From positions 1-64,000 of IMG/VR virus record IMGVR_UViG_3300025727_000008: a DNA stretch of 64,000 nt. One strand, 5' to 3'. This DNA is from a virus. The position numbers and the translations under genes are program-made. Shown here piece by piece: positions 17,558-43,571 of the stretch (within the stretch, counting starts at the first letter, position 1; every line of letters starts with the position of its first letter). The notes beneath the pieces are model-generated. The model saw only the letters and a list, made by a program, of their open reading frames with translations, ran no database searches and was not told the origin of the DNA.

Positions 17558-18961
17558 TCAAGCACTCTTTAGGTTGGTAATCTTACCTTGACCCTTGAAG
17601 AAGGAACAGCATGTTTCGCCCATTGTGCGATACATACCTTGATTTCCAAGTTTACCAACACCGAATGGATTTCCACTAGTAATTCCATCCTCAAAATACT
17701 GAGTAGGCTTCATTACAGATAACCAAAGATGGTCTGTATCAAGAATTAACATATCACTTAACCTGTTGCTTGTTGATTGACCAGTTGACGGCATATCTTT
17801 AGCAGGGATAATTGGTATGTCGTAGTAGGTTGCCACACGGAAACCTACTTCTTGACCCTTTACTCCACGAACACCATTATGGGAAGGAACTATTTCTTTC
17901 CTATCCATAAATCGCTCTTGTGATTGTAGTAAATCAGAAAGTTTCTGTATGGTATCATATCCAGTAATGATAACTTTAGGATTACCACCGTTAGTGCGGA
18001 TTCTACGAATCATATCATTAAGTATGCTTAGAGTTAAAACTCTACAATTACCTGATGTATAATCAGTACCGAAGTCAACTTCTGCGTCTAGGAAAGATGC
18101 AACACCTGTGTAAGTGTAAGCACCTGTTCCGCCGCTAGTATCAACAGTAACAGTTCTAGTTGAACCAAAGATAGTAGTAGCATCAGCAAGTTGTGCTGCT
18201 GTACCATTATTTGTTTGGTTGTGATAGAATACGTCGTCATCAGCCATCTTTGCAAGTTCAGCAGCAGATGATATAATCTTCATTAGAGAAGTATAATTCT
18301 TCTCAATTCCAGTTGTACCGTTCTCTGAATACTTTTCAAGAGGCATAACTAACATCTTGCTTTGTACTTCAGCGTGTAACTTACCCATGTCTTCTCTAAC
18401 GATAGCGCGAATATCTCCGACACCATCATCAATTGCAGCCATTTCCATTCCTAGTTCTGAGAACTCAAATAGATGTGCAATAGTCTTAGGGCTAACATAT
18501 AGTTTAGTATATTCAGGAGCGATTGCTCTGAATCCATCTGCACCACCTAATGCTGCGTTTTCTCCAACACCACCAATTTGGTCTGCTCTAGGTGTTTCTG
18601 CCTGAGCAGAAGTCATTGCTGCTGTTACTGCATTAGTACCAGTTCCGAATGCTGCACTTGAACCACCAATAGGTCGGCTCTTTAGTACTCTCCAACCACT
18701 AGATGTGTAAGGTCGCTTTGCAAGCATTGCAAGAGGGTTAACTTCTTGGTTTAATACTGACCAAACTTTTTGTCCGTATAATAGGTTGTATAAATCTCCT
18801 AATCCTGCTGCACCGGTAAATGCATTAGCACTAGTATCGTGAGGTGTTCCAAATCCACCAACGACTCCACCTGCTTTAAGCAAAGCGTTGCCGCTACCAG
18901 TTCCACCATATCCGTATGTTGCTGCTTCTAAATCTTTCATTGTCTTAATATATCCACTCAT
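17558..18961 (-). CDS. major capsid protein, HK97 fold
   Basis: 467 residues, three bases after the protease-scaffold gene, the canonical order. The pattern (PLAMLAKRPYTSSGWRVLK early; VSPKTIAHLFEFSE; RREDMG-like REDMGKLHAEVQSKML; NPKVIITGYDTIQKL; C-terminal GMYRTMGETCCSFF) fits HK97-type capsid subunits with an E-loop, spine helix and P-domain. The GC content and Cys/Gly/Ala codons are visibly higher than in surrounding AT-rich genes, as expected for a highly expressed protein. No N-terminal delta domain is separate because the scaffold is fused to the protease upstream. Confidence 0.85.
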   Translation of the reverse strand: MSGYIKTMKDLEAATYGYGGTGSGNALLKAGGVVGGFGTPHDTSANAFTGAAGLGDLYNLLYGQKVWSVLNQEVNPLAMLAKRPYTSSGWRVLKSRPIGGSSAAFGTGTNAVTAAMTSAQAETPRADQIGGVGENAALGGADGFRAIAPEYTKLYVSPKTIAHLFEFSELGMEMAAIDDGVGDIRAIVREDMGKLHAEVQSKMLVMPLEKYSENGTTGIEKNYTSLMKIISSAAELAKMADDDVFYHNQTNNGTAAQLADATTIFGSTRTVTVDTSGGTGAYTYTGVASFLDAEVDFGTDYTSGNCRVLTLSILNDMIRRIRTNGGNPKVIITGYDTIQKLSDLLQSQERFMDRKEIVPSHNGVRGVKGQEVGFRVATYYDIPIIPAKDMPSTGQSTSNRLSDMLILDTDHLWLSVMKPTQYFEDGITSGNPFGVGKLGNQGMYRTMGETCCSFFKGQGKITNLKSA

Positions 18962-18963: not shown

Positions 18964-20142
18964 TTAATCACCCCTCACTAGGTTGTGAACGTCATCCCAA
19001 GTCATAGATGCTGCTGCTTCTAAACTTGTAGGTATTCCTTCAGGTAGCGTCATAGACACTTCTGCGCTCTTGCGAATTGTTTCATTTTCTTTTGATAGAG
19101 ATTTGCGTAGTAATACAAACTCTTCTTTTAGTGCTGCTACATCTGTTCGGGCATCGTATGATGCTGATTCATGGTTTGCTTTCTTTACAGAAAGTTCTTC
19201 AGCAAGTCTAGATTCAAAAGTCTTGCTTAGATTATCATAAGCGTATTTTTCCATCTGTTCTGCTTTAAACTGCACATATGCCTTTTCAACATTCTCTGCG
19301 CTTAGGTTAAGAGTACTAAAATCAGAGTCATTTAGACCCTCACTCTTTAGTTCAGAAGGTGCTGCTGTTGGTTTACCGCCGCTAACAACTAATTCTCCTG
19401 CTTCATAATCTCTAGTTGTATCTTCATCTAGAGCCTTCAGTTCTTCCTCTTCTTCTTCAGAATCTCCCTTTTCCATTTCAGGTTCTTCTTCAGTGTCCAT
19501 ATACTGTTCATTCTTCGTTACTTCTTCATTTTCTTGCTCTCCGAGTCCGTTAACTTGTTTCATTAAGTCATTCAACTCTTCAAGTGCTTTTTCTAATTTT
19601 TCACTCATTGTTTTGTCCTCCATTTTTAAAATGTCGAATTTTGCTTCGGGATTAATACCCTTTTCGCAGATAGTTACTTCGTGTAACTCTAATCTGTCTA
19701 TCTCATTGTATTCGCCAAACTCTTCTGATGTTCTTTGTTTCTTAGAAATCGCTTGACCCCCAATACTAAAAGAACGAAGTGTTCCCTTTCTAATACTTCT
19801 TGAAATTTCTTTTGCTTTTTCTATGTCCTCTCTTAACTTAATAACAACATAAAACCCTACATCATCTACACCGGTTTTATGTAAAGTTCCATTAGTATCA
19901 CGATATTTTTCAATAACTTCTCCAACTTGCACATTAGAATGATTAGACATTACATTTCTATATTTCTTCTCACCCATATATTTTACAACTGCTTCATCTA
20001 AAGCACTTAATGTAATTAAATCGTTTTGTTTATCTACTATTTCTATAGAAGCATATCCACCAATAACTAAATTATCAGACTTAAGAATAGTAAATTCATG
20101 ATGAGAATTTGCTTTCAACAAAAGTGTAGGCTGCATCAGCAT
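18964..20142 (-). CDS. prohead maturation protease fused to scaffold, with C-terminal W-tag
   Basis: 392 residues. Residues 25-165 match the HK97 / U35 prohead protease fold: GGYASIEIVDKQNDLI, catalytic His68 in SNHSNVQVGEV and Ser126 in LRSFSIGG. From about 175 to the end the protein is acidic and coiled (a Glu-rich run near 225-240), typical of an internal scaffold domain. The extreme C-terminus reads SMTWDDVHNLVRGD, a version of the tryptophan motif found at the N-termini of many neighbours. Ribosome-site signal is weak; a TATA-like AT run about 25-30 bases upstream of 20142 suggests a promoter for the capsid genes. Confidence 0.85.
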   Translation of the reverse strand: MLMQPTLLLKANSHHEFTILKSDNLVIGGYASIEIVDKQNDLITLSALDEAVVKYMGEKKYRNVMSNHSNVQVGEVIEKYRDTNGTLHKTGVDDVGFYVVIKLREDIEKAKEISRSIRKGTLRSFSIGGQAISKKQRTSEEFGEYNEIDRLELHEVTICEKGINPEAKFDILKMEDKTMSEKLEKALEELNDLMKQVNGLGEQENEEVTKNEQYMDTEEEPEMEKGDSEEEEEELKALDEDTTRDYEAGELVVSGGKPTAAPSELKSEGLNDSDFSTLNLSAENVEKAYVQFKAEQMEKYAYDNLSKTFESRLAEELSVKKANHESASYDARTDVAALKEEFVLLRKSLSKENETIRKSAEVSMTLPEGIPTSLEAAASMTWDDVHNLVRGD

Positions 20143-20174
20143 TATTTTTTAATTTTTAACTTTTACTATATTAA
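20143..20174 (-). promoter_or_regulatory. possible promoter before the protease/capsid genes
   Basis: On the minus strand the 32-base gap reads as an almost pure A/T stretch with TTAATATAG about 30 bases before the ATG at 20142 and no clear ribosome site. This is the arrangement expected for an archaeal TATA box with a short or leaderless transcript. Sequence evidence only. Confidence 0.35.
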
Positions 20175-22760
20175 CTAATCGCTATTTTTATTAGGAAATT
20201 TTAAATTACTATATTTATCCTCATTAATATTCCATATATTAACATCATCTTCATCCTTTAACATTGATTGTTTCTTACCTGTCCAAGCAATCCATGTTTT
20301 CTTTTCATTTATTGGAACAACTCTTAGATGTAGTCTAGTTTCAAACTTATCTCCTTCTAATTTATATTCATGATAACCGTCTTTTTGAACACCTAATGTT
20401 ACTATCCCCTTATCTATAATTTTACCTTCATTTATATTAGTTGCAACAATAGCAGGATATTTATTAGATTTACCAAATAAATTATAAATATCATCAGTAT
20501 CTTCAATATCTATTAACCATGCTAATCTTTTATTTTTATAATTAATTACAAAATTAATATTACCATCTTCTTGAAGAGAAATATTAAATTTTCCTTGTTT
20601 AGAATCTTCCTTATAGATTATATTTTCATCCACATCTTTTTCTAAAATTTCTTCATTAGAAAAGAATTTATTAGGATGTTTGTAAATGAATGAATCTTGT
20701 TTTTTCATCCAAGACATTAATTTAGATTCTACTGATTTAAATAAACTTTGGAATAAATCAGGGTATTCTTTCTTTACAAATAAAACTATTTTTTCAAATT
20801 CTAATTCATCATTTCCGCTATTTAATATTTCATTTCTTATAGATATTCTTAACTCAGAACGCTTACTTTTTATTAATTGATTTAATTCTTCTTTCCACAA
20901 ATCAATATTATGTAAAGCGTTTTTCTCCATTAAATTATCTCCTTCAAATCCATATAAAGTATAGCCTTCTAAATTTTCTTTTAATATAATTTCAGCAGTT
21001 CCATGTATATCGTCTGTAATATAATATCCCTTTTTTAGTTTTTTAGGTTTTACTAAATCAGACTCTAAACCACTCATAACTCTAAATGGTTTAGGAACAA
21101 CTCCTGAAACTAAACCGCGTATAGCAGATAATGATTTTTTACTTTTAGATGCTAATTTTTCTAATGTTGCGATATTATCAGATTGAGTAACTTCAGGAAC
21201 TTCTATCACTTTAGCGGAATACAAACTAAAACCATTTTTATTTTTAGTAACTTCATCAACTTTAACTCTAACAATACTACCAACATCTACATTGATTTTA
21301 GTGTTTAAAGCCTTACCAACTTCTAAATAATCCTTCCCTTCAAATTCAACAGTTGCATAATTTCTAGCAACTTCTGCTGTAACTGCACCTATACCCATTG
21401 TATAAGAATGTAAATTGCTTTTAGTTTTTCTATCTTTTAGAACTATCACATCTAAGTCAACAAATTTTTTCCATTTAATCCATTTTGGATTTTTTCTATT
21501 TCCAATATAATAGGTAGATTCTATATCTTTAATAACTACTCCTTCAGAAGCAGGTAATTTCATAATATCTTTAGAATACTCTTCTACTTCTTTCTTAGAA
21601 TCTGCAATACGAGTATCTTTTTTAGAAGGAAATGCTAAATTTTCAGAAGAGTGTTGAGCATATTGATATAATAAAATATTAATTCTTTCTCTTAAAGGTT
21701 CTTCTGTTATTTCTTTTCCTTCATGTATCATAATATCAAAAACATGAGCCTTTAGTGTACCTTCAGTTTTTTTATGGAAAACATGAGTAATAGTGTCTGC
21801 TCGTTGTAATGGCTCATCATCTAAGAATAACATTAATTCTGCATCTAAGATACAATCACCAAACTGTTTCTTTTCCATATGTTTAACTTGTTCAGGGCAT
21901 TTTAAAGTAATATCTTTTTGATTAAAAGAATAAATTTTAACTTTATTATCAAACTTATGAATTTGTATTCTCATTCCATCATATTTTTCTTGAACTACAA
22001 ATTCACCTGTTAAACCTTTAATATCATCTAAATCATCTATTTCAAATATCCTATACATTGGTTTATTTGGTTGAATAAAATCTATTCCTGCTTTTGTTAT
22101 ATCTAATTCTAATAATGAATCCCATTGTTCTTCATTATATTTTTCTAAATATATTTTTTCTAATTGTTTAAATGCGTGTTTACATTTAGATTCTATTCTT
22201 CTAGTATCGTCATTTTCATCACCATAATGTTCAATAATATAAATAGGAACATCTTTAGGTTCTAAATCCAAACCCATATATCCTTGAGTAATATTATCAG
22301 GTTGTAAATTATGTGCATTCCAAGATTTATCAGGAATAGGATTAGTATGAGAACGCACTGCATAATGAATAAATGCTAATAACATAGATTCATTTTTCAT
22401 AAATTCTTTGATTACATCATCACCTAATTGTTTTGAAAATGGGTCGCTTACTTTATCAGATTTGAACCTAAGACTTTTAACACCTTCATAAATTTCTTTT
22501 GCTTGTCTAGATTCAGGGTCATATGCTTCTTCTGAAAAAACTATATCTTCTTTCAAATATTTTTTTAATTCTCTAGTAAAATCATCTAAAGAATCAAACT
22601 GATTTCTAACTTCCTTTACTGTTTTTCGCCACTTCTTGTTATAATCAGAAGGGTTTTCTTTAGCAGATAAATAAGAATATCTGACTCTTTCAAAAAAATC
22701 CAATACTCGTTTAGTTAAAGTATCTTTTTCCTTTTCAAAAATAACCCCTGTTTGCGGCAT
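20175..22760 (-). CDS. large ATP-dependent DNA ligase with N- and C-terminal extensions
   Basis: 861 residues. The core (about 240-510) shows nucleotidyltransferase motifs in order: I, KYDGMR with adenylated Lys near 259; III-like DAELML; IV, EGVVIKD; V, KWIKWKK; then an OB-type segment (AEVARNYATVEFEGKDYLEVG). The first 230 residues are helical and unfamiliar. The last 270 include a beta-rich part (GYHEYKLEGDKFETRLHLRVVP...TWIAWTG) that faintly resembles the LigD 3'-phosphoesterase fold. Seals nicked DNA. Its place beside the capsid genes, with a second ligase at 61.1 kb, suggests a distinct role such as genome end processing or packaging; that is inference. Confidence 0.85.
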   Translation of the reverse strand: MPQTGVIFEKEKDTLTKRVLDFFERVRYSYLSAKENPSDYNKKWRKTVKEVRNQFDSLDDFTRELKKYLKEDIVFSEEAYDPESRQAKEIYEGVKSLRFKSDKVSDPFSKQLGDDVIKEFMKNESMLLAFIHYAVRSHTNPIPDKSWNAHNLQPDNITQGYMGLDLEPKDVPIYIIEHYGDENDDTRRIESKCKHAFKQLEKIYLEKYNEEQWDSLLELDITKAGIDFIQPNKPMYRIFEIDDLDDIKGLTGEFVVQEKYDGMRIQIHKFDNKVKIYSFNQKDITLKCPEQVKHMEKKQFGDCILDAELMLFLDDEPLQRADTITHVFHKKTEGTLKAHVFDIMIHEGKEITEEPLRERINILLYQYAQHSSENLAFPSKKDTRIADSKKEVEEYSKDIMKLPASEGVVIKDIESTYYIGNRKNPKWIKWKKFVDLDVIVLKDRKTKSNLHSYTMGIGAVTAEVARNYATVEFEGKDYLEVGKALNTKINVDVGSIVRVKVDEVTKNKNGFSLYSAKVIEVPEVTQSDNIATLEKLASKSKKSLSAIRGLVSGVVPKPFRVMSGLESDLVKPKKLKKGYYITDDIHGTAEIILKENLEGYTLYGFEGDNLMEKNALHNIDLWKEELNQLIKSKRSELRISIRNEILNSGNDELEFEKIVLFVKKEYPDLFQSLFKSVESKLMSWMKKQDSFIYKHPNKFFSNEEILEKDVDENIIYKEDSKQGKFNISLQEDGNINFVINYKNKRLAWLIDIEDTDDIYNLFGKSNKYPAIVATNINEGKIIDKGIVTLGVQKDGYHEYKLEGDKFETRLHLRVVPINEKKTWIAWTGKKQSMLKDEDDVNIWNINEDKYSNLKFPNKNSD

Positions 22761-22770
22761 AATACCTCAC

Positions 22771-22986
22771 TCAGTTAGATTTATTTTCTTTTCCTTCAAT
22801 ATTACTAGTTTGAGGCAATTTAACTTCTTTAGGATTTTCTTTAGGTTTCTCTACCTTAACTTCTTCACCTGTTAATGGTTCTTTAAGTTCTAAAGTTCCT
22901 AAATGTTTAGCCTCTTGAATTACTTCTTTGGCTTTTGCAATCGCTAGTTCTAATATTTTTTCTTCTCTTGTTACTTTTTCCGGCAT
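22771..22986 (-). CDS. small Lys/Glu-rich helical protein
   Basis: 71 residues from the ATG at 22986 (MPEKVTREEKILELA), preceded by GGGGTGAATAAA; an upstream in-frame start at 23031 would overlap the preceding gene. One long helix (about 5-30) is followed by a Pro/Lys/Glu-rich disordered region. Seven bases separate it from the 76-residue W-tagged protein upstream and ten from the DNA ligase downstream. Unknown function; head assembly is plausible by location. Confidence 0.5.
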   Translation of the reverse strand: MPEKVTREEKILELAIAKAKEVIQEAKHLGTLELKEPLTGEEVKVEKPKENPKEVKLPQTSNIEGKENKSN

Positions 22987-22991
22987 TTTAT

Positions 22992-23222
22992 TCACCCCAT
23001 TGTATTTACTAATTCGTGTATATCTTCCCATTCCATACTCTTTTTTATTGGGCTGCCACTCATAGGAATATTTGTACTGTCCATCATTGGTGAAGGAGAA
23101 TCTACCACTACTAATCCTGATTTCATAAGTAAGTTATCTTTATGATAAACTGCTTCTTCAAGATGTTTCACTTTACTTACTAATTCTTTTAATAATAATA
23201 ACATTTCATTTTCTTCACTCAT
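22992..23222 (-). CDS. small coiled protein with C-terminal W-tag
   Basis: 76 residues from the ATG at 23222. The N-terminal half is a Leu/Glu/Lys coiled coil (EMLLLLKELVSKVKHLEEA), the middle Ser/Pro/Met-rich, and the C-terminus SMEWEDIHELVNTMG closely matches the end of the protease-scaffold, SMTWDDVHNLVRGD. A small coiled protein carrying the same capsid-end peptide as the scaffold is a good candidate for an auxiliary scaffold or protease regulator. The function is inferred from this shared tail. Confidence 0.6.
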   Translation of the reverse strand: MSEENEMLLLLKELVSKVKHLEEAVYHKDNLLMKSGLVVVDSPSPMMDSTNIPMSGSPIKKSMEWEDIHELVNTMG

Positions 23223-23295
23223 AAAAACCATTCCTTCGATATGCTGCCACTAGTTCTTCTGTTATTAATCTTTTAAGTTCTCTTTTCATATTCAT
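23215..23295 (-). CDS. 26-residue coupled microprotein
   Basis: ATG at 23295 shares its A with the TAA of the upstream tagged gene, and its TGA overlaps the start of the next gene. The product MNMKRELKRLITEELVAAYR... is a basic amphipathic helix. Overlap at both ends argues for real translation. No family recognised. Confidence 0.45.
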   Translation of the reverse strand: MNMKRELKRLITEELVAAYRRNGFYE

Positions 23296-23603
23296 TATTT
23301 ACCATCTCTCGGTTTATATATTTTAGTTCCTATATATTTCGGTTCAGGTAATGTAGGACTTAAAGGATGTTCAGTATTCATTAAACAACTCCCATTATCA
23401 CTAATAGTTACTTCAGGTAAAGAACATTTTAAGTTTTTATTATGACCACATTTGGTAGCCTCACATTTTCTTACTTTACAATCTGATGCAGTAGGTATAA
23501 ACGCAGTTCCTTTTGGTATATATTTTGTTCCGCCACCTGCAATATCACTAATTCTAGAAGCCATTTCTGCATCTTCATTCTTAACTATATCTTTCCAACT
23601 CAT
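23295..23603 (-). CDS. W-tagged Cys-cluster protein (DUF1540-like)
   Basis: 102 residues beginning MSWKDIVKNED, a clear copy of the N-terminal tag. The body has a Cys cluster at about 42-73: CKVRKCEATKCGHNKNLKC, then Cys after VTISDNGS, spaced like the metal-binding DUF1540 family seen in some bacteria and archaea. A Pro-rich tail follows. As a tagged protein it is a candidate for packaging inside the capsid. The DUF resemblance is by Cys spacing and I rate it moderate. Confidence 0.6.
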   Translation of the reverse strand: MSWKDIVKNEDAEMASRISDIAGGGTKYIPKGTAFIPTASDCKVRKCEATKCGHNKNLKCSLPEVTISDNGSCLMNTEHPLSPTLPEPKYIGTKIYKPRDGK

Positions 23604-23615: not shown

Positions 23616-24092
23616 TTAATATTCTGCACCATATTGGTTATCTACTTTAACAGGCAGCATTAGTCCATCACCCATTGGTTCTCCCCACATTTCATCATCC
23701 TTTAGTTTGTAATCTATATATGCTGGATGAACTTCACCCATTCCACCTGAAGGAGTTTGTCGCATATTGGTATCTTTCTTACTATTCGTTTCTTCCTTAT
23801 ATTCATCAGATGTATCTACTAAGCCTTGAATTAAGTGAAGCAAAGCACTATTGTAGGATTCTTTAGCATGTTCTAACCTGTTAAATTTCTCATCAATATA
23901 TTTAAAATCTTCTTCTGATAACTTTCCGTCTAATTTTGGAAATCGCTCATATGCTAAATGCTCAAAATCACCCCAATCTAATTTGGAAAAAGGCTCTATT
24001 TCCAAACTTTCTAATTCGTCTGCTATATCTTCTAATTCTTCCGCAATGCTACCTTTATCATTTATCTTTACTATATCTTTCCACCAACTCAT
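23616..24092 (-). CDS. W-tagged acidic protein
   Basis: 158 residues beginning MSWWKDIVKINDKG. The body is acidic and helical (AEELEDIADELESLEIEP; YIDEKFNRLEHAKESYNSALLHL) and ends GLMLPVKVDNQYGAEY. No catalytic motif, Cys cluster or membrane span. Belongs to the run of tagged genes from 23.3 to 26.7 kb. Unknown function; internal head protein is inferred from the tag. Confidence 0.6.
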   Translation of the reverse strand: MSWWKDIVKINDKGSIAEELEDIADELESLEIEPFSKLDWGDFEHLAYERFPKLDGKLSEEDFKYIDEKFNRLEHAKESYNSALLHLIQGLVDTSDEYKEETNSKKDTNMRQTPSGGMGEVHPAYIDYKLKDDEMWGEPMGDGLMLPVKVDNQYGAEY

Positions 24093-24124: not shown

Positions 24125-24397
24125 TCAGGTGATTCTGCTGTACCACTCAATTTTCTCCTTTATTAGTATATCTTTTATTGTCTCGGCTTCCTTATCCCAT
24201 TCAACATCTTCAGGATTTGTGTCGCCTTTTGCCAAATCCTCAAACAACCTTTGAATATATTTTAAACTTCCTAGTAAATTATTTACCCGCCCTCCAAGTT
24301 CACGAATTACGGCACTATCAGTTCCCTGTCGTAGGGTTTTATTATTAGGATTTCTCTTATCTGCGTCTTCTTTCTTTATTTCATCTTTCCAAGTCAT
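24125..24397 (-). CDS. W-tagged small protein
   Basis: 90 residues beginning MTWKDEIKKEDADKR. It is charged and helical (VIRELGGRVNNLLGSLKYIQRLFEDLAKG), ending KEKIEWYSRIT. Its start overlaps the stop of the next tagged gene by four bases, so the two are translationally coupled. No family recognised. Confidence 0.6.
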   Translation of the reverse strand: MTWKDEIKKEDADKRNPNNKTLRQGTDSAVIRELGGRVNNLLGSLKYIQRLFEDLAKGDTNPEDVEWDKEAETIKDILIKEKIEWYSRIT

Positions 24398-24720
24398 TCT
24401 AAATCCCCCTTACTCTTAGGATAAACCATATCTCTTAATTGACGATATAGTGTTTCATAATCTTTTCTAAGTTCTGCTGCTGATGATACTATTTCTAAAT
24501 TCCTTTCATCAAAGCCCTCAAACTTTTTTTGTAATTTTTTATCAGATTTAACTAAATCTAATTTACGCATTTCATCTAATAAATCAGATAAATGAGTCAT
24601 CTCTTGACCCATATATTCAGTAGGTTGGGTTTTCTGTAAAAGTTTCTTAAGTTTCTTTTTTTGTTTAGGTTCAACTTTTTCTAAAATTGAAGTAGATTTA
24701 AGTATATTTTTCCAACTCAT
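24394..24720 (-). CDS. W-tagged small helical protein
   Basis: 108 residues beginning MSWKNILKSTSILEK. A Lys-rich stretch (PKQKKKLKKLLQK) is followed by helices with Leu/Asp/Arg spacing (LSDLLDEMRKLDLV, SAAELRKDYETLYRQLRDM). It may bind DNA or the capsid wall through the basic part; this is inference. Overlaps the downstream tagged gene by four bases. Confidence 0.6.
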   Translation of the reverse strand: MSWKNILKSTSILEKVEPKQKKKLKKLLQKTQPTEYMGQEMTHLSDLLDEMRKLDLVKSDKKLQKKFEGFDERNLEIVSSAAELRKDYETLYRQLRDMVYPKSKGDLE

Positions 24721-24757: not shown

Positions 24758-26746
24758 TCAATTTATGTTTTTAAGTTTAGAAATAATTAATTTTTCTAAC
24801 CCGTTATTTTTCATAGATGTTACATATTCATTATAAATATCATCTAATTGCTTTTCAGTAGGGTTTGTTAATTTACTTTGTTTTTCTTTTAGTGTTTTTA
24901 TAAATTCCATATGTTGTATCTGCGCTGGTCTATTTAATTTTAAATCTCTAAGTGTATCAAACCATGAATCAGCCTCATCTTTCAAACTATCTATATTATC
25001 TCCTGTTTGGCTAGCATTTACATCTTTAATTTTCCTCTTCATGCGATGTGTTTCTTCTTTAGTATTATCAGGTAAATCTCCAAACCCTTCACCTAAAGCA
25101 CCAGTACCATTAAATAAATTACTTAATTTTGTTAATTTCTTAACATATTTCTTTTTAAGTTCCTTAATTTTATTTATGTTAGATTTGTTTTCCCGTTCTG
25201 TTATAGATGCGTCAACACGTTCTGTTAATTGTTCTATAGTTAATTTTTCACCTTTTTTACTATTTAAAGTAGTATCAAGCATATCTAAAATTTCTGTTTC
25301 TATTTCAATTATTTCTATATTTAACTTCTCTAGAAGAATATATTTTCCTTTAATTTTCAATGCAGATAAAATACCATTAAGTGCTTTTGATATTTTTTTC
25401 CTTTTACTAACTAATTCTTTAAAATTATCAATAATGGCTAAAGGCTCATTAGGTTTTGAATAACTAATACTATCTTTGAAATCTTCAGTCATTTCATATC
25501 CATCATCATTAATATCTTTTACCCATTGTCGTTTTTGAGGTTTAACTTCTTTAGAGAGTTCGTATAGTTCTTTTATTGATACTCCGTCTAATGGAATGTC
25601 TGCATCTATTAGTGTTATTTCGTTTGATTTATCATTTAAATCTTTTATTGATTCATTTAAATCATCAATTCTAGATTGTTTCATAGGATTTTTAATTTCT
25701 ACCATACAACTAATTATGAGTCTTAATATTTTTAAATTAGATTCAATTTCTAACATAAATTCTTTAAAATCAGGTTTATCCTTTTCAATATCAATACCAT
25801 TATCACCTATTTCATCTTCTAATATTATTATTTTTTTTATTATTTCATATCCAATTAAATCATTATTTTTTTTAAAAAGAAGTGGTAAATGTTCATCTGC
25901 CTCTTTTATTAATTCAATATTATTTGATTCTATAGGTTCAATAAATTCTTCTATAAATTTAATAGTACTTTCATAATCCATATCAAAATATTCAGTTAAC
26001 AATTCTGTTGATTTATCACTTATATATTGATTATCAAATGTAATATCTAATTTATCAAATATAGCATATAATATTTTTTTGGATTTTATAAATCCGAAGT
26101 CTGTTATAATTTTAGAATATCTTTTAGGTATTTTTTCATTATTATTTAAATAACCATTTAATGATTCAGCAAGGCGTTTAATTAATTCATTTTCACTGTT
26201 AGTAGTAGTCTTTCCTGTATTTAATATTTTTTTAAACATTTCAAGGTCTTTATCTGATTTGTGTTTTTTAGGAATACCATAAATCTCTTTTAATCTAAAA
26301 ATTAATCCACTTTTACGCTTTTTCTCTTCTAATAATAAGTTATATGCTTCAGGATATTTATCTTTAGTTATATTTTTTTCAACATCATCTATTGCATTTT
26401 TAAGAATATTTAAAACTTTAAAATCATCTATTTTCCTTGTTCCTGTATCGTCTTTAGGAGTAGTAGTTTGTGTTTTTTCACCCTCTTCAAGTCGTTCCGT
26501 GTCTGTAAATGTTTTATGATGTATATATGTCCACTCACTATTATTAATATCATCCAAATTAAAAATATCTAATTGAGGAACACCATCTAATTGATTATAT
26601 TTATTTTTTACGTCTTTCATATCCCTAATTAAAGTCTTACTTTCCTTTAAATCCATCTCCCTATATTTACGCAAAATTTTTATTATGATTTCCGATAATG
26701 GTTTAAGTTTACGTTCTTTATTTTTTAAAATATCCATAAACGACAT
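24758..26746 (-). CDS. giant W-tag family protein (662 residues), tag variant MSFMDILK
   Basis: 662 residues starting MSFMDILKNKERK, where Phe replaces the tag Trp but the DILK remains. The rest is almost continuous charged helix, rich in Lys, Glu, Asp, Asn and Ile, with heptad-like stretches (ELKKKYVKKLTKLSNLF). No enzyme motif is visible. Resembles in composition the 920- and 753-residue tagged proteins at 32.0-37.1 kb. I propose an internal head or ejected protein, based on tag and location upstream of the portal's neighbours. Confidence 0.6.
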   Translation of the reverse strand: MSFMDILKNKERKLKPLSEIIIKILRKYREMDLKESKTLIRDMKDVKNKYNQLDGVPQLDIFNLDDINNSEWTYIHHKTFTDTERLEEGEKTQTTTPKDDTGTRKIDDFKVLNILKNAIDDVEKNITKDKYPEAYNLLLEEKKRKSGLIFRLKEIYGIPKKHKSDKDLEMFKKILNTGKTTTNSENELIKRLAESLNGYLNNNEKIPKRYSKIITDFGFIKSKKILYAIFDKLDITFDNQYISDKSTELLTEYFDMDYESTIKFIEEFIEPIESNNIELIKEADEHLPLLFKKNNDLIGYEIIKKIIILEDEIGDNGIDIEKDKPDFKEFMLEIESNLKILRLIISCMVEIKNPMKQSRIDDLNESIKDLNDKSNEITLIDADIPLDGVSIKELYELSKEVKPQKRQWVKDINDDGYEMTEDFKDSISYSKPNEPLAIIDNFKELVSKRKKISKALNGILSALKIKGKYILLEKLNIEIIEIETEILDMLDTTLNSKKGEKLTIEQLTERVDASITERENKSNINKIKELKKKYVKKLTKLSNLFNGTGALGEGFGDLPDNTKEETHRMKRKIKDVNASQTGDNIDSLKDEADSWFDTLRDLKLNRPAQIQHMEFIKTLKEKQSKLTNPTEKQLDDIYNEYVTSMKNNGLEKLIISKLKNIN

Positions 26747-34810: not shown

Positions 34811-37072
34811 TTAACCTCTTATATTATGTTCTTCTGCTAACCAAGTAATTGGTTGAAACTTACGGTTTCCACTTAAAACAACATCTTCATTTATTACATA
34901 TTTTATAGATTCTTGTATTTCATTAAGAAGTGATTTTCTTACATGTTCGTATCTATCTAATAATAAATCACGCATGTCTTTAATAAGAGTTTGTTTATTT
35001 TCATCATCATCTATTTTTTCATTTTTATTTTTATCTAAAATATCCCAAGCACGACGTATTTCATTGTTACCATTTATATTCCCATCTAAACCCTTACTAA
35101 ACATTATAAATTTCCCAAAATTTCTACTTACATTATATTCGATTATTTCTGCTTCGGGAGATGTAAGGGTTTCTTCATCTTCATCCTCAGTATTAAAAAC
35201 CATTTTTTTGAATTTTTGAAGAGTTATTTTATCTGCATTATTTTGAGTTTCAAAATCTATATGTGTCTTAACCATATTGTTAAGTATTGTTTTAAATTTA
35301 TTTATATCCATCAGACTCTCTATTGCCATCCCAATATCAAAAAATTCTAATCCTGTTAATCTTTCTATTTTATTTTCAGTTTCATCATCTACCTTACCTT
35401 CAAATAATAACAAACCTTCTCTTTCATTAGAAGTTAAAGTAGCCCCTAAATATGAATCTTCTAGTTTATTTAATAATTTTTTAACACCCGTTTTAAATCT
35501 CAAATCACTTTCGTTATCTACATGTCTGTCTACCGGAAGTATTGTTGCCATTAAATTCCAAGTATTAGAATTATAATTATTATATTTATTTTGTAATTCA
35601 TCTAATAAGTCGTCGTCTATTTTAGTGTCTGTTTTAAGTTGTTTTGTTTCATGTTTATCAAAATAACTTTTTAACTTAATAAGCAATTTACTTGTTTTAA
35701 TTTTACTTTTAACTTCGGTTAACATCTCATTAAGTAATGGTTCTAGTTGTTCTTTATTTTCATGGTTAAAATAAATATCAAACATATACTTATAGGTATC
35801 ATAATCATCAACAAGAAGTCTAAATGACTTATTAGTACCTTGTAACATTTGCTTTTTATCTGACTTTGTTCCAGTCGTTATAGCCTTTAAAAAATATTCT
35901 ATTGATACCTTTGTTGATGGTTGTTCAATCTCATTTTTACGTCGCCCAGTAATCCTTGTTAATTCTTCCGTACTTTTTTTACCTGCTTTTTTACGCGAAC
36001 TTTTTTCACTTGAATCAAAATCAATATATTCAGCAAACTTCAAAGTTTGAGCCAACTTAGTTCTTTTAATAGCATTATAATTATTAGTTGTTCCATTAGA
36101 AAATATAAATAATTGTTCTTTAGTCATAAATTTAGGAAACCCTGTAAACGCAAATAAACTTCTTTCTTTATTTCCATACGCCCTTTCAGTTTTTGATTTG
36201 CTAGGTAGTTTTAATTTAGGTGGTGGGGCTAACAGGTTCTTACCCGAAAGAGGTTGAGGATTCGCATTAAATCCGAACGTAGACCAATCTATATGTCTAA
36301 ATTTAGATTCTAATGGTTTACCACCTATAGTATATGTTTCATTTATTTTATCATATAATACAGGTTTAGGTGTATCAATATCAAGGTCGAGTTTTTCAGC
36401 CTTAATCTTAATAGCATCTGCAACTTTACCTTCTATCTCCATAAGTATCATAGTTCCATCTTTAATTTCATACCCTAATATTTCAGGATTAGATTTTAAT
36501 TTCTCTATGATTTTTTTCTTATCAATTTTATTATTATTAATTAATCTACCTAATATCACCTGTCTTTGAGTAATTGCATCTTCCGCTAATACTCTTTTTT
36601 TGGTAACTAGTTTTTTCTTATCTCTAAAAATATGTTCACTATAAGAAACCTTACCAGTTAAATATTCAATAAGTTTTTCAATATCATTATTATATAGTTC
36701 CATAATAATACTATGATTATGATTACTATGCATATTTTTCAATTCTATAATCCATTTTATTTTTTCACGATATTTTGAGAATTCTTTCATAGGTAATTTA
36801 ACATGTGAAATTGATATTGGTGGTTCTTTAAAATAATCAACTTCAGGTGGGGCTAACAGTTTCTTATGTAGTATAGTTAAAATTTCTTGAAATTTAGGTT
36901 CAGTCATTTTATCCGAAGGAACAGGGGGTTTACCAGTATGAATATGTTTATCATAAAAATCACTAACTGCATTATTCATTTCTGATTTATTATATCCTAA
37001 TAATGGATATACTAATTTCATTTTAGGCGACATAACTTTCGCTCTATCTTTAAGAATTAATTGCCAACTCAT
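34811..37072 (-). CDS. giant W-tagged protein (753 residues)
   Basis: Begins MSWQLILKDRAKVMSPK, a canonical tag. Mostly charged helix; a Pro/Leu-rich stretch (LLAPPPKLKLPSKSK, about 280-295) and a basic run (KKAGKKSTEELTR, about 362-375) break it. A Leu-Leu-Ala-Pro-Pro string occurs twice (about 72 and 279). A Ca-binding-like DKNKNEKIDDDE segment near 705 resembles an EF-hand loop but is not a clean match. Start overlaps the 44-residue tagged gene by four bases. Internal head protein is inferred. Confidence 0.6.
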   Translation of the reverse strand: MSWQLILKDRAKVMSPKMKLVYPLLGYNKSEMNNAVSDFYDKHIHTGKPPVPSDKMTEPKFQEILTILHKKLLAPPEVDYFKEPPISISHVKLPMKEFSKYREKIKWIIELKNMHSNHNHSIIMELYNNDIEKLIEYLTGKVSYSEHIFRDKKKLVTKKRVLAEDAITQRQVILGRLINNNKIDKKKIIEKLKSNPEILGYEIKDGTMILMEIEGKVADAIKIKAEKLDLDIDTPKPVLYDKINETYTIGGKPLESKFRHIDWSTFGFNANPQPLSGKNLLAPPPKLKLPSKSKTERAYGNKERSLFAFTGFPKFMTKEQLFIFSNGTTNNYNAIKRTKLAQTLKFAEYIDFDSSEKSSRKKAGKKSTEELTRITGRRKNEIEQPSTKVSIEYFLKAITTGTKSDKKQMLQGTNKSFRLLVDDYDTYKYMFDIYFNHENKEQLEPLLNEMLTEVKSKIKTSKLLIKLKSYFDKHETKQLKTDTKIDDDLLDELQNKYNNYNSNTWNLMATILPVDRHVDNESDLRFKTGVKKLLNKLEDSYLGATLTSNEREGLLLFEGKVDDETENKIERLTGLEFFDIGMAIESLMDINKFKTILNNMVKTHIDFETQNNADKITLQKFKKMVFNTEDEDEETLTSPEAEIIEYNVSRNFGKFIMFSKGLDGNINGNNEIRRAWDILDKNKNEKIDDDENKQTLIKDMRDLLLDRYEHVRKSLLNEIQESIKYVINEDVVLSGNRKFQPITWLAEEHNIRG

Positions 37073-37203: not shown

Positions 37204-37559
37204 TTTGCCTTACCCCCCGTACATTTTTCAAAATTATCTATCATTTTTTCTAGTTCTGCTAATCCCCAAGTGGGAAAGTTACTATCTTTTTGTGGTTTTT
37301 TAACTTCATCTATCATATGCAAAATTGTTCCCACTACCACATCACAAGGCTTTTCTAATATGCTCAGAAAATAATCTTTCATACCGTTAACATCTTCTTC
37401 AAACAACCCCTCTCTAGAATGACCTAATTTTTCAGCGTAATATTCAACTAATTTTTCAATAAACATACTATACTCAGTTTTTAATTGAGAACAACACGAT
37501 TCATACGCATCGAACTTTACATCTAAAATTTGTATTTTTAAAACATCTTGCCAACTCAT
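37200..37559 (-). CDS. W-tagged Cys-containing protein
   Basis: 119 residues beginning MSWQDVLKIQIL. Helical, with scattered Cys (ESCCSQL, EKPCDVV, EKCTGGKAK) and acidic stretches. No recognised fold. Coupled to the downstream microprotein by a four-base overlap. Candidate internal head protein because of the tag. Confidence 0.6.
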   Translation of the reverse strand: MSWQDVLKIQILDVKFDAYESCCSQLKTEYSMFIEKLVEYYAEKLGHSREGLFEEDVNGMKDYFLSILEKPCDVVVGTILHMIDEVKKPQKDSNFPTWGLAELEKMIDNFEKCTGGKAK

Positions 37560-37565: not shown

Positions 37566-37901
37566 TTATCCCTCCAAATTACCATCTAAACTATACAGTA
37601 TTACATCTGATACTGCTACTTCTAATGATATAATCAGTTCTCTTAATTCTTTATCTAATACCCCTGCGTTTCTTACCGCCATCCTATAATCATCATCATG
37701 CTCCATGTCGTAAGGTTCTCCTTTCTCGTCTATTAAATACGGGTTATTTTTATGATGAGCATATTTTTTAGCGTTTAATAAGAACTGTTGAAGTTGTCTA
37801 ATTTCATCAAGAGTCATAGAACCAAAATTAGGGTGAGTTTGCATAAGTTTAACCATAGCATTTACTTCGGGTTTATTCTTTAAGATATTATTCCAACTCA
37901 T
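37566..37901 (-). CDS. W-tagged small protein
   Basis: 111 residues beginning MSWNNILKNKPEV. Helical (LDEIRQLQQFLLNAKKYAHH), with a polar middle (DMEHDDDYRMAVRNAG) and a hydrophobic amphipathic end (LEVAVSDVILYSL). Overlaps the tagged GNAT stop by four bases. No family recognised. Confidence 0.6.
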   Translation of the reverse strand: MSWNNILKNKPEVNAMVKLMQTHPNFGSMTLDEIRQLQQFLLNAKKYAHHKNNPYLIDEKGEPYDMEHDDDYRMAVRNAGVLDKELRELIISLEVAVSDVILYSLDGNLEG

Positions 37902-38308
37902 TGCATCAACTCTATCATTAATCCTTTTTCATCAATTTCTGTAACTTTCAGTTCTGAATTATTCTTCAGTTTATCTGCAACCTTATACAAATGAGGATTC
38001 GTTATTCGACCATAGGCTAACCAAAATGGCCTATATTCTCCTAATACCCCATTAGTGTCCATTAATGCCCCAACTACCATTTTTTCTGCAAACCCTTTTC
38101 TTTGGTAATCAGGATGAATAGAAATATGTAATTCTCTTATCTTTCCATCATTAAATGGCTTCATGTTTTCAAGGCTACTATAATCTTTAGGCCGGTAATG
38201 CAAAATTAGTTTATCTCCGTATTCCTCAAACAAAACATTGTGAAACCAACCATCATCATCTACTGAAATAGGACTAATTTCCGCTTTTAATAACTGTTGC
38301 CAACTCAT
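37898..38308 (-). CDS. W-tagged GNAT-family acetyltransferase
   Basis: 136 residues: tag MSWQQLLKAEI, then a compact GNAT core. IRELHISIHPDYQRKGFAEKMVVGAL holds the beta4 strand and the Q/R-x-x-G-x-A acetyl-CoA pyrophosphate loop; NPHLYKVADKL is the following helix. It is a complete minimal GNAT. An enzyme carrying the same N-terminal peptide as structural-region proteins suggests it is packaged and delivered with the genome. Substrate unknown. Confidence 0.7.
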   Translation of the reverse strand: MSWQQLLKAEISPISVDDDGWFHNVLFEEYGDKLILHYRPKDYSSLENMKPFNDGKIRELHISIHPDYQRKGFAEKMVVGALMDTNGVLGEYRPFWLAYGRITNPHLYKVADKLKNNSELKVTEIDEKGLMIELMQ

Positions 38309-38964: not shown

Positions 38965-39323
38965 AATTCCTCTTCAGGGTAAAGTTCCATAGCCTCTTCT
39001 ATATCTTCTCTAAAGTTTTCAGCGACTTCTAACCAATCAACATCTGATATTGAATCTCCTACTTCATCTCTATCATTAACGGGAGATAATAATTCATCCA
39101 TGAAACCTTTACTTTGAGTCATCATTTCAGGTAACTCTTTTGCTATTGTATTTAATATATCATCTATAACATCTTGTTTAGTCCAGTTGAATTCAAGATA
39201 ACCTTTTACCTTTAATTTAATTAACTGTACTATAGGAAAATAAAGTTCTTCAGTATTCATAACCCATAAATCTGCACTTCTAGTAGCAGTTGCGGTATCT
39301 TTCAATATCTTTTTCCAACTCAT
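38955..39323 (-). CDS. W-tagged acidic protein
   Basis: 122 residues from the ATG at 39323 (MSWKKILKDTATATR), preceded by GGAGAG; a longer frame from 39371 would bury the tag and overlap the 25-residue gene. The body is mixed, ending very acidic (ENFREDIEEAMELYPEEELWK). No catalytic motif. Overlaps the zinc-finger gene start by ten bases. Confidence 0.6.
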   Translation of the reverse strand: MSWKKILKDTATATRSADLWVMNTEELYFPIVQLIKLKVKGYLEFNWTKQDVIDDILNTIAKELPEMMTQSKGFMDELLSPVNDRDEVGDSISDVDWLEVAENFREDIEEAMELYPEEELWK

Positions 39324-39402: not shown

Positions 39403-40562
39403 ATTAATTCCCTCTTTAAAATATCTCGCCAATCATTAACTTCTACATCATTAGTTTTTTTAGTTTGAGATTTAACTTCCGGTTTATCAAATCTAATAGT
39501 AACAGTATTATGTTTCCTACCTGTTTTTGGTTCAGTAAACTTTCTATTATTTTCCTTCAATAATATTTTTGCCATCTGATTTGCTACCCCTCTAGTTAAT
39601 TTAAAATATCCTCGTTTAAGTGTGAAAAATTCAGGTATTCCTAAATTATTCCTAACTCTATTTTGAAAATCTTTTCTTGTTGGCAATAAATGACTTTTAC
39701 TCTCTATTTCTCGCATAACCTCGCCATATCGAAATGCACCATTTCTACCTGCCATATCAGGTTCAATATATTTACGAACTATTCTCTTAATACTATTAAT
39801 TTCTAATGCTTTTTCAGCCCAACCTGTTTGTCCTTTTTTTCCTAATTTAATAGGATTATCTTTACTTATACCTACACCGTCTTTTAAGGCTTCAATACCT
39901 TCTTCTATGATTTCATGTAAACTTTTAGAACTTGTAATTTTAACCTCACCTTCTCTACCATACATAACTTGCCAAAAAGGTGGTTCGGCTACACCTTTAG
40001 AATAGTCATACCAAGATTCAGGACATGCCGGTGCAGGGTTTAAATCCCTTTTAGGGAATTTTTTCATTTTAATTTTTCTTTTATTTTCATAATTTTTAGT
40101 ACGATAGTGTCCATATACTTCTTCTTCATCTACAACTTTACCACTATCTTCATCTACTTCTTTATCGGTAAAAGAAATATTTCTAGGATTTAAAGGGTTT
40201 TGAGGGCTACTATAAGAATCCATTAAAAGTCTAACTTTATTTAATTTTATTATATCATCTATACCAATATCTTCTCCATCAACAATATTAGTAATAATTC
40301 CTATAATTTCAGAACCACCTTTACCACTAGTATAAGGTGAAGGGGATTTATCACCTTGTAATCTACCAATTAATCCTTGTTGTTTAAACATCTGATAAAG
40401 ACTAATATCATTTTCCATAAATAATGTTTCACCACTTATTTCTGATAACTGTTGTTGCCAATTATCAAACGATTTTCCAAACATTTGGACATTAGCACCA
40501 GTTAATTTAACATCATTTTTTAAGATTATATTTGACGTTCTTTCTAGGTTTCTTTTTGCCAC
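39396..40562 (-). CDS. protein with C-terminal W-tag
   Basis: 388 residues from a GTG at 40562 following GGGGG; an internal ATG at 40484 is an alternative. Starts MAKRNLERTSN, sharing NLERTSN with the 920-residue protein. Basic overall, with folded-looking parts (EIIEEGIEALKDGVG; YGEVMREIESKSHLLPTRKDFQNRV) and a C-terminal end VNDWRDILKRELIC, the tag placed at the opposite terminus from its neighbours. No family recognised. With the protease-scaffold it shows the tag works at either end. Confidence 0.6.
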   Translation of the reverse strand: MAKRNLERTSNIILKNDVKLTGANVQMFGKSFDNWQQQLSEISGETLFMENDISLYQMFKQQGLIGRLQGDKSPSPYTSGKGGSEIIGIITNIVDGEDIGIDDIIKLNKVRLLMDSYSSPQNPLNPRNISFTDKEVDEDSGKVVDEEEVYGHYRTKNYENKRKIKMKKFPKRDLNPAPACPESWYDYSKGVAEPPFWQVMYGREGEVKITSSKSLHEIIEEGIEALKDGVGISKDNPIKLGKKGQTGWAEKALEINSIKRIVRKYIEPDMAGRNGAFRYGEVMREIESKSHLLPTRKDFQNRVRNNLGIPEFFTLKRGYFKLTRGVANQMAKILLKENNRKFTEPKTGRKHNTVTIRFDKPEVKSQTKKTNDVEVNDWRDILKRELIC

Positions 40563-40823: not shown

Positions 40824-41123
40824 TCACTCCAATCCTTTAAACGAATCTCTTTCTGAAATACCAGCATCATCCATTATATCTTGCAATCTAGCAACAAGAT
40901 ACTCATTTGTGAACACCTGCCAATTACCTTCTTCGGTTTGCATTGCTTCTAATCCACTTTCTAACCAAGTCAACCATCGGTGAGCATCATGTTCTAACTG
41001 TCCTTTCAACTTAGGCAAATACTCTAATCTAAACCTTCTAAGAAAATCCTTTACTTGCGCTACAGTCAATTCATTAGGATTGTAATGGGGTTTTTCCTTT
41101 CTAATTATATTAAACCAATTCAT
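40824..41123 (-). CDS. W-tagged small protein
   Basis: 99 residues beginning MNWFNIIRKEKPHYN, the aromatic-rich tag form shared with the genes up to 43.6 kb. Helical body with several Trp (HRWLTWLESGLEAMQTEEGNWQVF). Overlaps the downstream end of the next tagged gene by four bases. Function unknown. Confidence 0.6.
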   Translation of the reverse strand: MNWFNIIRKEKPHYNPNELTVAQVKDFLRRFRLEYLPKLKGQLEHDAHRWLTWLESGLEAMQTEEGNWQVFTNEYLVARLQDIMDDAGISERDSFKGLE

Positions 41124-41342: not shown

Positions 41343-41825
41343 TCATTTCCCCCTTGCCATAACTTCAGCACACCTTCTACAATAGTGTAACTCTTTAGGT
41401 GAACCCTTTGAATGTATTTTACCATCTCTTATATATTTTTTAGTGCCTAGAGATACCGGTTTTTTGCATCGAACACAGCGAAATTTACTAAGATTAGAAT
41501 TTGGTTTTTTCTTTTCTTTTCCTTCAGGTCGCCCACTTGCATTAAATCCTTTAATACCATATTGCACTTCACCTTCTTGTGCCATTGATGTTCCTAACCT
41601 AGTTTTTCTCTCTTCGATTAATTTTTTACCTTCAACATTCCTGTTTAGTGGTAAATCTGTTCCTCTTCCCATTGTTCTACTAGTGCCTTTGGGTGCATGA
41701 CCTTCCTCTTCAATAGATTTTACTCTTTCGTTAGGTTTTAATCGTTCACCACCCATTATATCAACAGGTTTCCTGTTCCTATTCTTTCTAGGCCGATTTC
41801 TTTTAATTAAATCAAACCAAGTCAT
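41343..41825 (-). CDS. W-tagged basic protein with C-terminal zinc ribbon
   Basis: 160 residues beginning MTWFDLIKRNRPRKN. The first 115 residues are strongly basic and low in complexity. The end holds CVRCKKPV...HYCRRCAEVMARGK, a four-Cys zinc ribbon. Basic tail plus zinc ribbon suggests nucleic acid binding inside the head or in the newly infected cell; this is inferred. Overlaps the upstream gene by four bases. Confidence 0.6.
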   Translation of the reverse strand: MTWFDLIKRNRPRKNRNRKPVDIMGGERLKPNERVKSIEEEGHAPKGTSRTMGRGTDLPLNRNVEGKKLIEERKTRLGTSMAQEGEVQYGIKGFNASGRPEGKEKKKPNSNLSKFRCVRCKKPVSLGTKKYIRDGKIHSKGSPKELHYCRRCAEVMARGK

Positions 41826-42088: not shown

Positions 42089-42786
42089 ACTAAATCACCT
42101 ACTACAATATCATGAATATTATTTGAACTATCTAAATATTGCAATATTAGTTTTACTTTTTCTTCATGCTTGATAACATCGTCATAAAAAATATCTATAG
42201 ATGAAGGAAACAAATATACATTCTCATGCTTTAATTGCCATACTTTATTACTGTAACTACCAGTTTCATCCCACGTTGTTATATTTTCATCGTAAATAGT
42301 CAATGGTCTAATTACCAGTAAGTTATCCATGTGATTTAGTAGTTCATTTAAAGGCTGGTGGAAAATGGAAGTTCTGTTGTTTTCGGAGAGCCATCCATCA
42401 TCTTCTTCTTGCATTGCGTTATACTCTTCCCACATTCTTTCATTCTCTAATTCATTTTCTGTTTTTTCCGGTTCAATCATATGGAGTTTATTATATCTTT
42501 TCGTTATATTATTTTTAGCAATATTAACTATCTTTTTGAATTTTTCATTCAACACATTATGCCCATTAAGAGTTAGACCACGATTACGCTTAATCCAATT
42601 AATAGTTTCTTCCTTAGTTTTCTGAGTTTCAATTGGTTGGCTCTTAGTCCAAGCAGACGGTTGTTCATGATATTTTTTCGGAGTAACATTTCCACCTGAC
42701 TTATTAGGACTTGACTTATTTCTATTCTTCTTTTGAGCATTACTAGGCCACTTCTTTTTTCTTTTTAGAATATCAAACCAAGTCAT
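42085..42786 (-). CDS. W-tagged protein
   Basis: 233 residues beginning MTWFDILKRKKKWPSN. A basic, Asn/Lys/Ser-rich linker (10-60) leads to a more folded region (about 100-233) with aromatic and acidic stretches (YNAMQEEDDGWLSENN; NVYLFPSSIDIFYDD). No motif recognised. The layout, tag then basic linker then domain, is what a packaged cargo protein might look like. Confidence 0.6.
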   Translation of the reverse strand: MTWFDILKRKKKWPSNAQKKNRNKSSPNKSGGNVTPKKYHEQPSAWTKSQPIETQKTKEETINWIKRNRGLTLNGHNVLNEKFKKIVNIAKNNITKRYNKLHMIEPEKTENELENERMWEEYNAMQEEDDGWLSENNRTSIFHQPLNELLNHMDNLLVIRPLTIYDENITTWDETGSYSNKVWQLKHENVYLFPSSIDIFYDDVIKHEEKVKLILQYLDSSNNIHDIVVGDLV

Positions 42787-43361: not shown

Positions 43362-43571
43362 TTATTCCTCGATAAACTTTAGTGTTGTTTGTTTTGAATT
43401 AGGTTTCTGTTCATCAGCACTAATAACTTTAGTTGGTTTAGGTTTACCTTTAAACCATTTACTCGCAGGTTTAGATGATACAGTTGCACCGTCAATTAAT
43501 TCTTCAGGTAGTTTTGTTTGTGTTGTATTCTTTTTATTTTTACTATCTTTGATAATATTAAACCAGTTCAC
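43362..43571 (-). CDS. W-tagged small basic protein, first gene of the virion block
   Basis: 69 residues from a GTG at 43571, after GGTGATGTT. Begins MNWFNIIKDSKNKKN and continues as a Lys/Thr/Pro/Ser-rich disordered peptide. It is the first gene after the divergent control region, so it should be expressed from the promoter at about 43.6 kb. Function unknown beyond the tag. Confidence 0.6.
   Translation of the reverse strand: MNWFNIIKDSKNKKNTTQTKLPEELIDGATVSSKPASKWFKGKPKPTKVISADEQKPNSKQTTLKFIEE

Follow-up and report, generated by a model that had tools for sequence, protein, structure and literature searches.

Short packaging tags have a precedent in the capsid-targeting sequence (CTS) of phage T4 (PMC3012670, PMC5694885), an N-terminal peptide of roughly 10 residues borne by otherwise diverse proteins (IPI-III and Alt) and partly similar to the start of the T4 scaffold gp22. 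In HSV-1, the C-terminal ends of the scaffold and the protease bind the major capsid protein (PMC8539031). The available portion of the account of phage P2 describes gpO as an N-terminal protease and a C-terminal scaffold in one protein, notes that gpO density was not seen in the reconstruction, and reports neither a partner protein with the same ending nor cargo tags (PMC7552001). In phages SPN3US and phiKZ, numerous internal proteins bear N-terminal propeptides that are believed to send them to the prohead; these propeptides are mostly >100 residues long and are cut at A/S-x-E type sites (PMC5694885).

We analysed a 64,000-nucleotide stretch of viral DNA (positions 1 to 64,000 of IMG/VR record IMGVR_UViG_3300025727_000008; hereafter the window). 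As in T4, diverse proteins here begin with a short tag, but this tag is unrelated in sequence to the CTS (M-K-T-Y-Q-E-F-I-x-E) and by sequence is not a member of it. It is ~8 residues long, stands at either terminus, occurs in many more families, is followed by no conserved residue that would mark a common cleavage site, and would serve in targeting by analogy with the CTS; the matching end of the scaffold is here the C-terminus. As in herpesviruses, two proteins, one of them with a protease, have the same tail. There, however, overlapping genes account for the sharing and, in HSV-1, the tail binds the capsid, whereas here the genes are separate, the proteins are unrelated apart from the tail, and the tail is a candidate capsid binder. 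The protease and scaffold are fused as in gpO, and many proteins carry N-terminal peptides, as in SPN3US and phiKZ, although much shorter ones.

The virus is one of a large assemblage of archaeal viruses from the sea that have not been cultured. Its head and replication genes point in opposite directions, it encodes a ligase and it is kin to the Druskaviridae, the features by which Magrovirales, viruses of Poseidoniales, are recognized (PMC12999244). The Druskaviridae HVTV-1, HCTV-1 and HCTV-5 encode a homologous protease (~30% identity) and capsid protein (~23-30%), and in them, as here, the protease gene adjoins the capsid gene. HCTV-1, the one of the three that was listed gene by gene, showed no tail motif and no W..ILK tags. 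The phage collection that we searched gave no match to a named magrovirus, and in the open-access literature no description of a tag of this kind in magroviruses came up; a shared terminal address in archaeal viruses is apparently undescribed.

The scaffold tail and the small coiled protein

The head genes considered here are as follows.

17558..18961, minus strand: major capsid protein, HK97 fold, adjoining the scaffold gene (Pfam SU10_MCP, E=5.6e-11; Foldseek matches to HK97-fold capsids)
18964..20142, minus strand: prohead protease-scaffold, 392 aa, with S78 protease domain, long helices, flexible linker and C-terminal motif; ending ...AASMTWDDVHNLVRGD
18976..19005, minus strand: scaffold C-terminal motif MTWDDVHNLV, residues 380-389
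22992..23231, minus strand: small coiled protein, 79 aa, or 76 aa from an inner Met at 23222; ending ...KKSMEWEDIHELVNTMG
23007..23036, minus strand: coiled-protein C-terminal motif MEWEDIHELV

The name protease-scaffold, first given from the letters alone, proved correct. The ORF contained Peptidase_S78 (Pfam PF04586, E=4.9e-10, above the cut-off) and matched the PHROG head maturation protease (E=4e-14). Its predicted fold runs from the protease domain through long helices, which give a helical C-terminal half, to a variable linker, and its gene lies directly upstream of the capsid gene, as is characteristic of S78-type protease-scaffolds.

The tail motif was present in 79/79 scaffold relatives in a first search and in all 162 of a non-redundant set that spanned several clades; 159 were detected by pattern, and the other three had Ala at +3 (numbering from the Trp). 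The linker before the motif could not be aligned among these 162 relatives, and the motif was nonetheless kept. In 60 divergent scaffolds, down to 38% identity, W382 was the sole invariant residue of the last 30.

Both ORFs were present, and so were the two endings in which the original prediction had seen one common tag. When the 16-residue C-termini of 92 module genes were compared in all 4,186 pairs, these two tails were the top pair (BLOSUM62 ungapped score of 46; runner-up, 32). A score of 46 was reached in none of 20,000 shuffles of both tails, where the maximum was 37. Their common motif is M-[ST/D/E]-W-x-[DE]-[IV]-[H/N]-x-[LM]-[VA], and it occurred in 62/62 relatives of the coiled protein in the first search, with further cases in distant clades. 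We concluded that the common ending is far from chance.

Related tags on late-strand proteins

Fifteen late-strand proteins in the window start with a tag of consensus M-[ST]-W-x-[DEN]-[IV]-[LIV]-K, and one further protein bears such a tag at its C-terminus.

23580..23603, minus strand: N-terminal tag MSWKDIVK, ORF 23295-23603 (DUF1540)
24066..24092, minus strand: N-terminal tag MSWWKDIVK, ORF 23616-24092
24374..24397, minus strand: divergent N-terminal tag MTWKDEIK, ORF 24125-24397
24697..24720, minus strand: N-terminal tag MSWKNILK, ORF 24394-24720
26723..26746, minus strand: N-terminal tag MSFMDILK, ORF 24758-26746
37049..37072, minus strand: N-terminal tag MSWQLILK, ORF 34811-37072
37536..37559, minus strand: N-terminal tag MSWQDVLK, ORF 37200-37559
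37878..37901, minus strand: N-terminal tag MSWNNILK, ORF 37566-37901
38285..38308, minus strand: N-terminal tag MSWQQLLK, ORF 37898-38308
39300..39323, minus strand: N-terminal tag MSWKKILK, at an inner Met of ORF 38955-39371
39414..39434, minus strand: C-terminal cargo-type tag DWRDILK, ORF 39396-40562
41100..41123, minus strand: N-terminal tag MNWFNIIR, ORF 40824-41123
41802..41825, minus strand: N-terminal tag MTWFDLIK, ORF 41343-41825
42763..42786, minus strand: N-terminal tag MTWFDILK, ORF 42085-42786
43196..43219, minus strand: N-terminal tag MDWFSVLK, ORF 42791-43219
43548..43571, minus strand: N-terminal tag MNWFNIIK, ORF 43362-43571 (missed by an ATG-only scan, and so probably with a non-ATG start)

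The N-terminal tags that had been proposed on other proteins are real: they were found on 15/46 late-strand genes and 0/46 early-strand genes (p=1.6e-5). A scan for W..[ILV][ILVM][KR] found a dozen in the first residues, against 0.035 expected. One family, that of ORF 39396-40562, bears the cargo tag C-terminally instead of N-terminally, and most of its 30 members end in K-S-W-x-x-[ILM]-L-like tags.

Among relatives, k-mer clustering resolved the proteins with the N-terminal tag into about 195-331 unrelated families. The DNA pattern of the tag was confined to one strand in every tagged contig (24/24 in the first set, 22/22 in the second). A blind scan for tags returned 22 long contigs, 16 of which encode the scaffold. 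Three further contigs had 5-8 tags each, and the two that were inspected were incomplete relatives; the last three had one tag each and are apparently unrelated.

Domain searches with 127 tagged families returned almost nothing (PAP2 in two, DUF5754 in two, one portal-like and one HNH); with hardly any tagged protein having a recognized domain, no function points independently to the virion. The idea that tagged proteins are a basic, DNA-binding class was rejected, as their pI was not shifted. Likewise, the portal N-terminus RRFSFTNLFR was rejected as a degenerate tag, since portal starts are unrelated in other clades.

Possible docking to the capsid and alternative explanations

The original prediction had raised the possibility that the scaffold tail is a capsid-docking end, which N-terminal tags on other proteins would then mimic. 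Part of this stands: a short, strongly conserved terminal motif sits on a flexible linker and is always found on the coiled protein, and its core recurs on many late proteins. In an AlphaFold2 model of a readthrough fusion, in which the scaffold tail continues past its stop codon into the capsid protein, the pLDDT of the tag helix was ~57-70, not above that in the control with the scaffold alone (~66-74), the capsid N-arm was disordered, and no confident contact between tag and capsid was seen in this one-subunit model, in which 16/79 alignment rows contained the tail.

Tails and cargo tags have the core [ST]-W-x-[DEN]-[IV] in common, and columns -1, +2 and +3, which were not used in selecting the tags, fit the scaffold/coil profile (log-odds r of.79,.55 and.79; p=1e-105 versus internal Trp). 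Two observations speak against simple mimicry. At +4 and +5, cargo tags have Leu/Ile/Val then Lys, whereas scaffold and coil have His/Asn then a variable residue, and this difference holds also for the C-terminal cargo tag. Moreover, in clade G019-G022 the scaffold tail is unchanged (MSWDEVH) whereas the cargo tag has been swapped for M-x-[PA]-F-[DN]-x-A-W-x-x-L-K.

Both differences would fit a reading in which the tails bind the capsid and the cargo tags bind something else (the scaffold core, the portal or the coiled protein), with the S-W-x-D-I core reflecting shared ancestry or chance convergence. We consider such separate partners rather unlikely, given the close match at -1, +2 and +3. 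The alternative cargo tag also retains a related hydrophobic spacing, although it aligns only weakly in register with the scaffold tail (r=0.55 over 9 columns).

Less probable still is that, instead of serving in docking, the motif is where the prohead protease recognizes or cuts its substrates, which would include the scaffold, the coiled protein and the tagged proteins alike. In favour are the S78 protease domain of the scaffold itself and the T4 case, where the residues common to the CTS and the start of gp22 take in the cleavage site (IPII MKTYQEFIAEA, gp22 MLKEQLIAEA). But the information in the N-terminal tags stops sharply past the Lys, with no conserved residue beyond +5 and hence no apparent common cut site; cutting inside residues 3-8 would take off almost nothing; and the capsid protein and the portal, the usual substrates, do not start with the motif.

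A motif directed at the host or replisome (e.g. PCNA-binding), or some other function outside the head, appears very improbable. The function of the tagged proteins is unknown and two of them have PIP-like C-termini, but tags are restricted to the strand of the capsid gene and have their core in common with the scaffold. The tag itself was rejected as a PIP box, as it lacks the Gln and the aromatic end of Q-x-x-[LIM]-x-x-aromatic, nor were PIP-like ends enriched among tagged proteins. Lastly, a DNA or RNA element that resembles a peptide (a translation start enhancer or late promoter) is largely refuted: Ser is mostly AGT, such that many tags begin ATGAGTTGG, but the same peptide occurs also at C-termini, and different synonymous codons encode its Ile, Leu, Lys, Asp and Thr, which indicates that selection acts on the protein.

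Proposed role of the tag and its meaning for the virus group

Judged by sequence conservation, the motif is strongly selected in the scaffold and the coiled protein, and a closely related core stands at the very N-terminus, or in one family at the C-terminus, of a large, fast-changing set of unrelated late proteins. We favour, with some reserve, a role for the shared ending in head assembly, as a short docking motif held at the terminus by a flexible tether, with the tagged proteins captured as procapsid cargo. By analogy, the ending is best read as a terminal assembly or packaging address, akin to the T4 CTS combined with a shared scaffold tail of the herpesvirus type.

Under this docking model, the tails of the scaffold and the coiled protein would both recognize one partner in the procapsid as it forms; the likeliest is the capsid protein, at its inner face or N-arm. 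The coiled protein would act as an additional scaffold, or as a component of the core, that has no protease. The variant of the core on the other tagged proteins would let the procapsid capture these as internal proteins, which, like those of T4, would probably be delivered with the DNA at infection. The scaffold would later be cleared by its protease.

A broader proposal, which we advance more tentatively, is that these viruses use a terminal peptide code that works at either end of a protein, descends from the scaffold tail or is matched to it, and may load ~10-20 unrelated proteins per virion. Clades would have swapped this code (S-W-x-D-I-L-K versus P-F-D-x-A-W-x-x-L-K), and the cargo of uncultured viruses could then be read from sequence.

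If the docking and cargo reading is true, an eight-residue tag marks the packaged, and probably injected, proteins of an abundant group of ocean archaeal viruses that have yet to be cultured. Some 330 families of unknown function would then be candidate take-over or anti-defence factors, and the partner of the scaffold tail would be a clean biochemical question. The tag would also offer a ready peptide for putting proteins into a capsid, and the system as a whole would parallel, in archaeal viruses, the internal proteins of T4.

A common C-terminal motif

The scaffold-protease ends in AASMTWDDVHNLVRGD and the small coiled protein in KKSMEWEDIHELVNTMG. The genes concerned lie in the head module of the window:

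17558-18961, minus strand: capsid protein
18964-20142, minus strand: scaffold-protease
20175-22760, minus strand: ATP-dependent DNA ligase, between the coiled protein and scaffold genes
22992-23231, minus strand: coiled protein

When all pairs of C-termini from both gene modules were compared, these two tails were the top-scoring pair (46, versus 32 for the runner-up), and no shuffles of the two tails came close to this score. The original observation that scaffold and coiled protein end in the same tag was borne out. The motif was kept in 79/79 scaffold relatives in a first search, and in all 162 non-redundant scaffolds when several searches were pooled, with Ala at +3 (columns are counted from the motif's Trp) in three of them. 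The scaffold stretch from the long helices to the motif was unalignable across clades, and the Trp was the sole invariant residue within the last 30 among 60 scaffolds with identity down to 38%. All 62 coiled-protein relatives kept the motif, as did a ~115-residue protein of the most distant clade, which we take from its position to be the coiled-protein homologue. Judged from sequence, this is how a tethered short linear motif for docking would be conserved.

The capsid protein has the HK97 fold. Because the capsid gene follows the scaffold stop codon in frame in 33 relatives, readthrough translation allowed tail and capsid to be modeled as a single chain. The model placed a tag helix at modest confidence, with no gain over a model of only the scaffold, and left the capsid N-arm disordered; this result speaks neither for nor against docking in an oligomer.

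Tags on other late proteins

M-[STND]-[WF]-x-x-[ILV]-[ILVM]-[KR] or a close variant starts 15 of 46 late-strand genes in the window, versus 0 of 46 early-strand genes. By k-mer clustering, tagged families across all loci numbered from ~195 to 331, depending on the pattern used and the data at the time of the count. An alignment of 127 tagged families gave MxWxxILK and hardly anything beyond; information stops after the Lys, which argues against a common cleavage site behind the tag. The family of 39396-40562 carries the tag C-terminally in most of its 30 members, so that the tag is terminal yet independent of the start codon, and the varied codons for the same residues indicate that selection acts on the peptide. 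Two loci (L282:11931-14546 and L285:14667-17267) held four-gene runs of adjacent tagged genes whose starts are alike past the tag, which suggests local expansion of cargo genes.

N-terminal tags for comparison with the scaffold tail were selected by W, by hydrophobicity at +4 and by K/R at +5, and by nothing else. The unselected columns -1 (S/T), +2 (D/E/N) and +3 (I/V) tracked the scaffold/coil profile (log-odds correlations 0.79, 0.55 and 0.79), the best register was the aligned one, and tag scores against this profile far exceeded those of internal Trp windows (p = 1e-105). We regard this evidence for one and the same motif as strong but not absolute, since the comparison covers few columns and full independence of the families cannot be assumed. 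At +4 and +5 the two differ: scaffold and coil have His/Asn followed by a variable residue, whereas cargo has Leu/Ile/Val followed by Lys. This difference is not positional, because C-terminal cargo tags are mostly of the cargo type. The proposal that N-terminal tags mimic the scaffold tail is supported at the core columns; the difference at +4/+5 and one clade with another cargo tag (contigs G019-G022) speak against simple mimicry.

In those four contigs, which lacked M-S-W tags and retained the motif in both scaffold and coil, late genes carried M-x-[PA]-F-[DN]-x-A-W-x-x-L-K, with 17 matches on the capsid strand versus 1 on the opposite strand; one of the 17 and the single opposite match are probably chance. 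With its F set on the scaffold Trp, hydrophobic columns agreed best at zero shift, albeit weakly (r = 0.55, 9 columns). Among the arguments against strict mimicry this clade is the foremost, and it also offers the best natural test of that idea. In G019-G022, a ~1,700-1,900 aa protein occupies the head-module place that DNA ligase has in the window.

Late genes with a second, different tag at the N-terminus (M-x-[PA]-F-[DN]-x-A-W-x-[VLIF]-L-K) in the clade without M-S-W tags
L274: 771-3697, minus strand
L186: 14255 and 19484
L193: 14250-15902
L280: 8570
L294: 14031
L289: 11336

Genomes carrying the tag

The DNA form of the tag was present in 24 of 28 large records (the window genome and 27 relatives), each time on one strand only, which in the window genome is the capsid strand; a reversed-pattern control gave 1 match in total. 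A blind scan of IMG/VR with one strict tag form found 65 stretches. Tags were again confined to one strand in the 22 long contigs among them, 16 of which encode the scaffold. Two of the six scaffold-less contigs (G034, G036) are relatives that stop shortly past the terminase or portal region, a third (G048) has 8 tags, and the remaining three have one tag each and appear unrelated.

The IMG/VR virus record whose bases 1-64000 form the window comprises 78,572 bases, with head and tail genes on the minus strand and replication genes on the plus strand. Among named phage records, the nearest for capsid and protease were haloarchaeal Druskaviridae. Gene orientation, this kinship and the ligase fit the magroviruses of marine Poseidoniales described in PMC12999244, and Poseidoniales would be the host. 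An ORF between portal and terminase (28664-30001, minus strand) has a LAGLIDADG-like stretch, AAFIDSDGYITMDKKFNPRVG, and is perhaps a homing endonuclease; a Pfam search of it gave no convincing match. Relatives inside MAGs labelled Maricaulis and Altibacter (L087-L091) are probably mis-binned virus contigs. Record IMGVR_UViG_3300021958_000021 (G030; 184,733 bases) has two different scaffold genes ~91 kb apart, and may therefore be two virus genomes joined.

Known systems and proposed mechanism

Terminal targeting tags and common scaffold tails are already known kinds. The closest working models are the capsid-targeting sequence (CTS) system of T4 internal proteins (PMC3012670, PMC5694885) and the C-terminus that herpesvirus scaffold and protease have in common and that binds capsid protein (PMC8539031); by sequence, the present tag lies outside the CTS family. 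We found no report among the open-access papers searched of both combined, with the tag at either end on hundreds of families in archaeal viruses, though such absence is weak evidence. Several small, adjacent right-end ORFs of the haloarchaeal virus HCTV-1 (NC_021330, ~45006-46167) have [RE][FY]W[DST]-x-x in common close to their C-termini, which may be a further system of terminal tags.

Most likely, scaffold and coiled protein would bind one common partner in the procapsid via their tails, and a variant of the same core would load internal proteins. The motif, its conservation, its distribution and the common core are established by the data above, from which we infer such a partner, together with packaging, injection and later removal.
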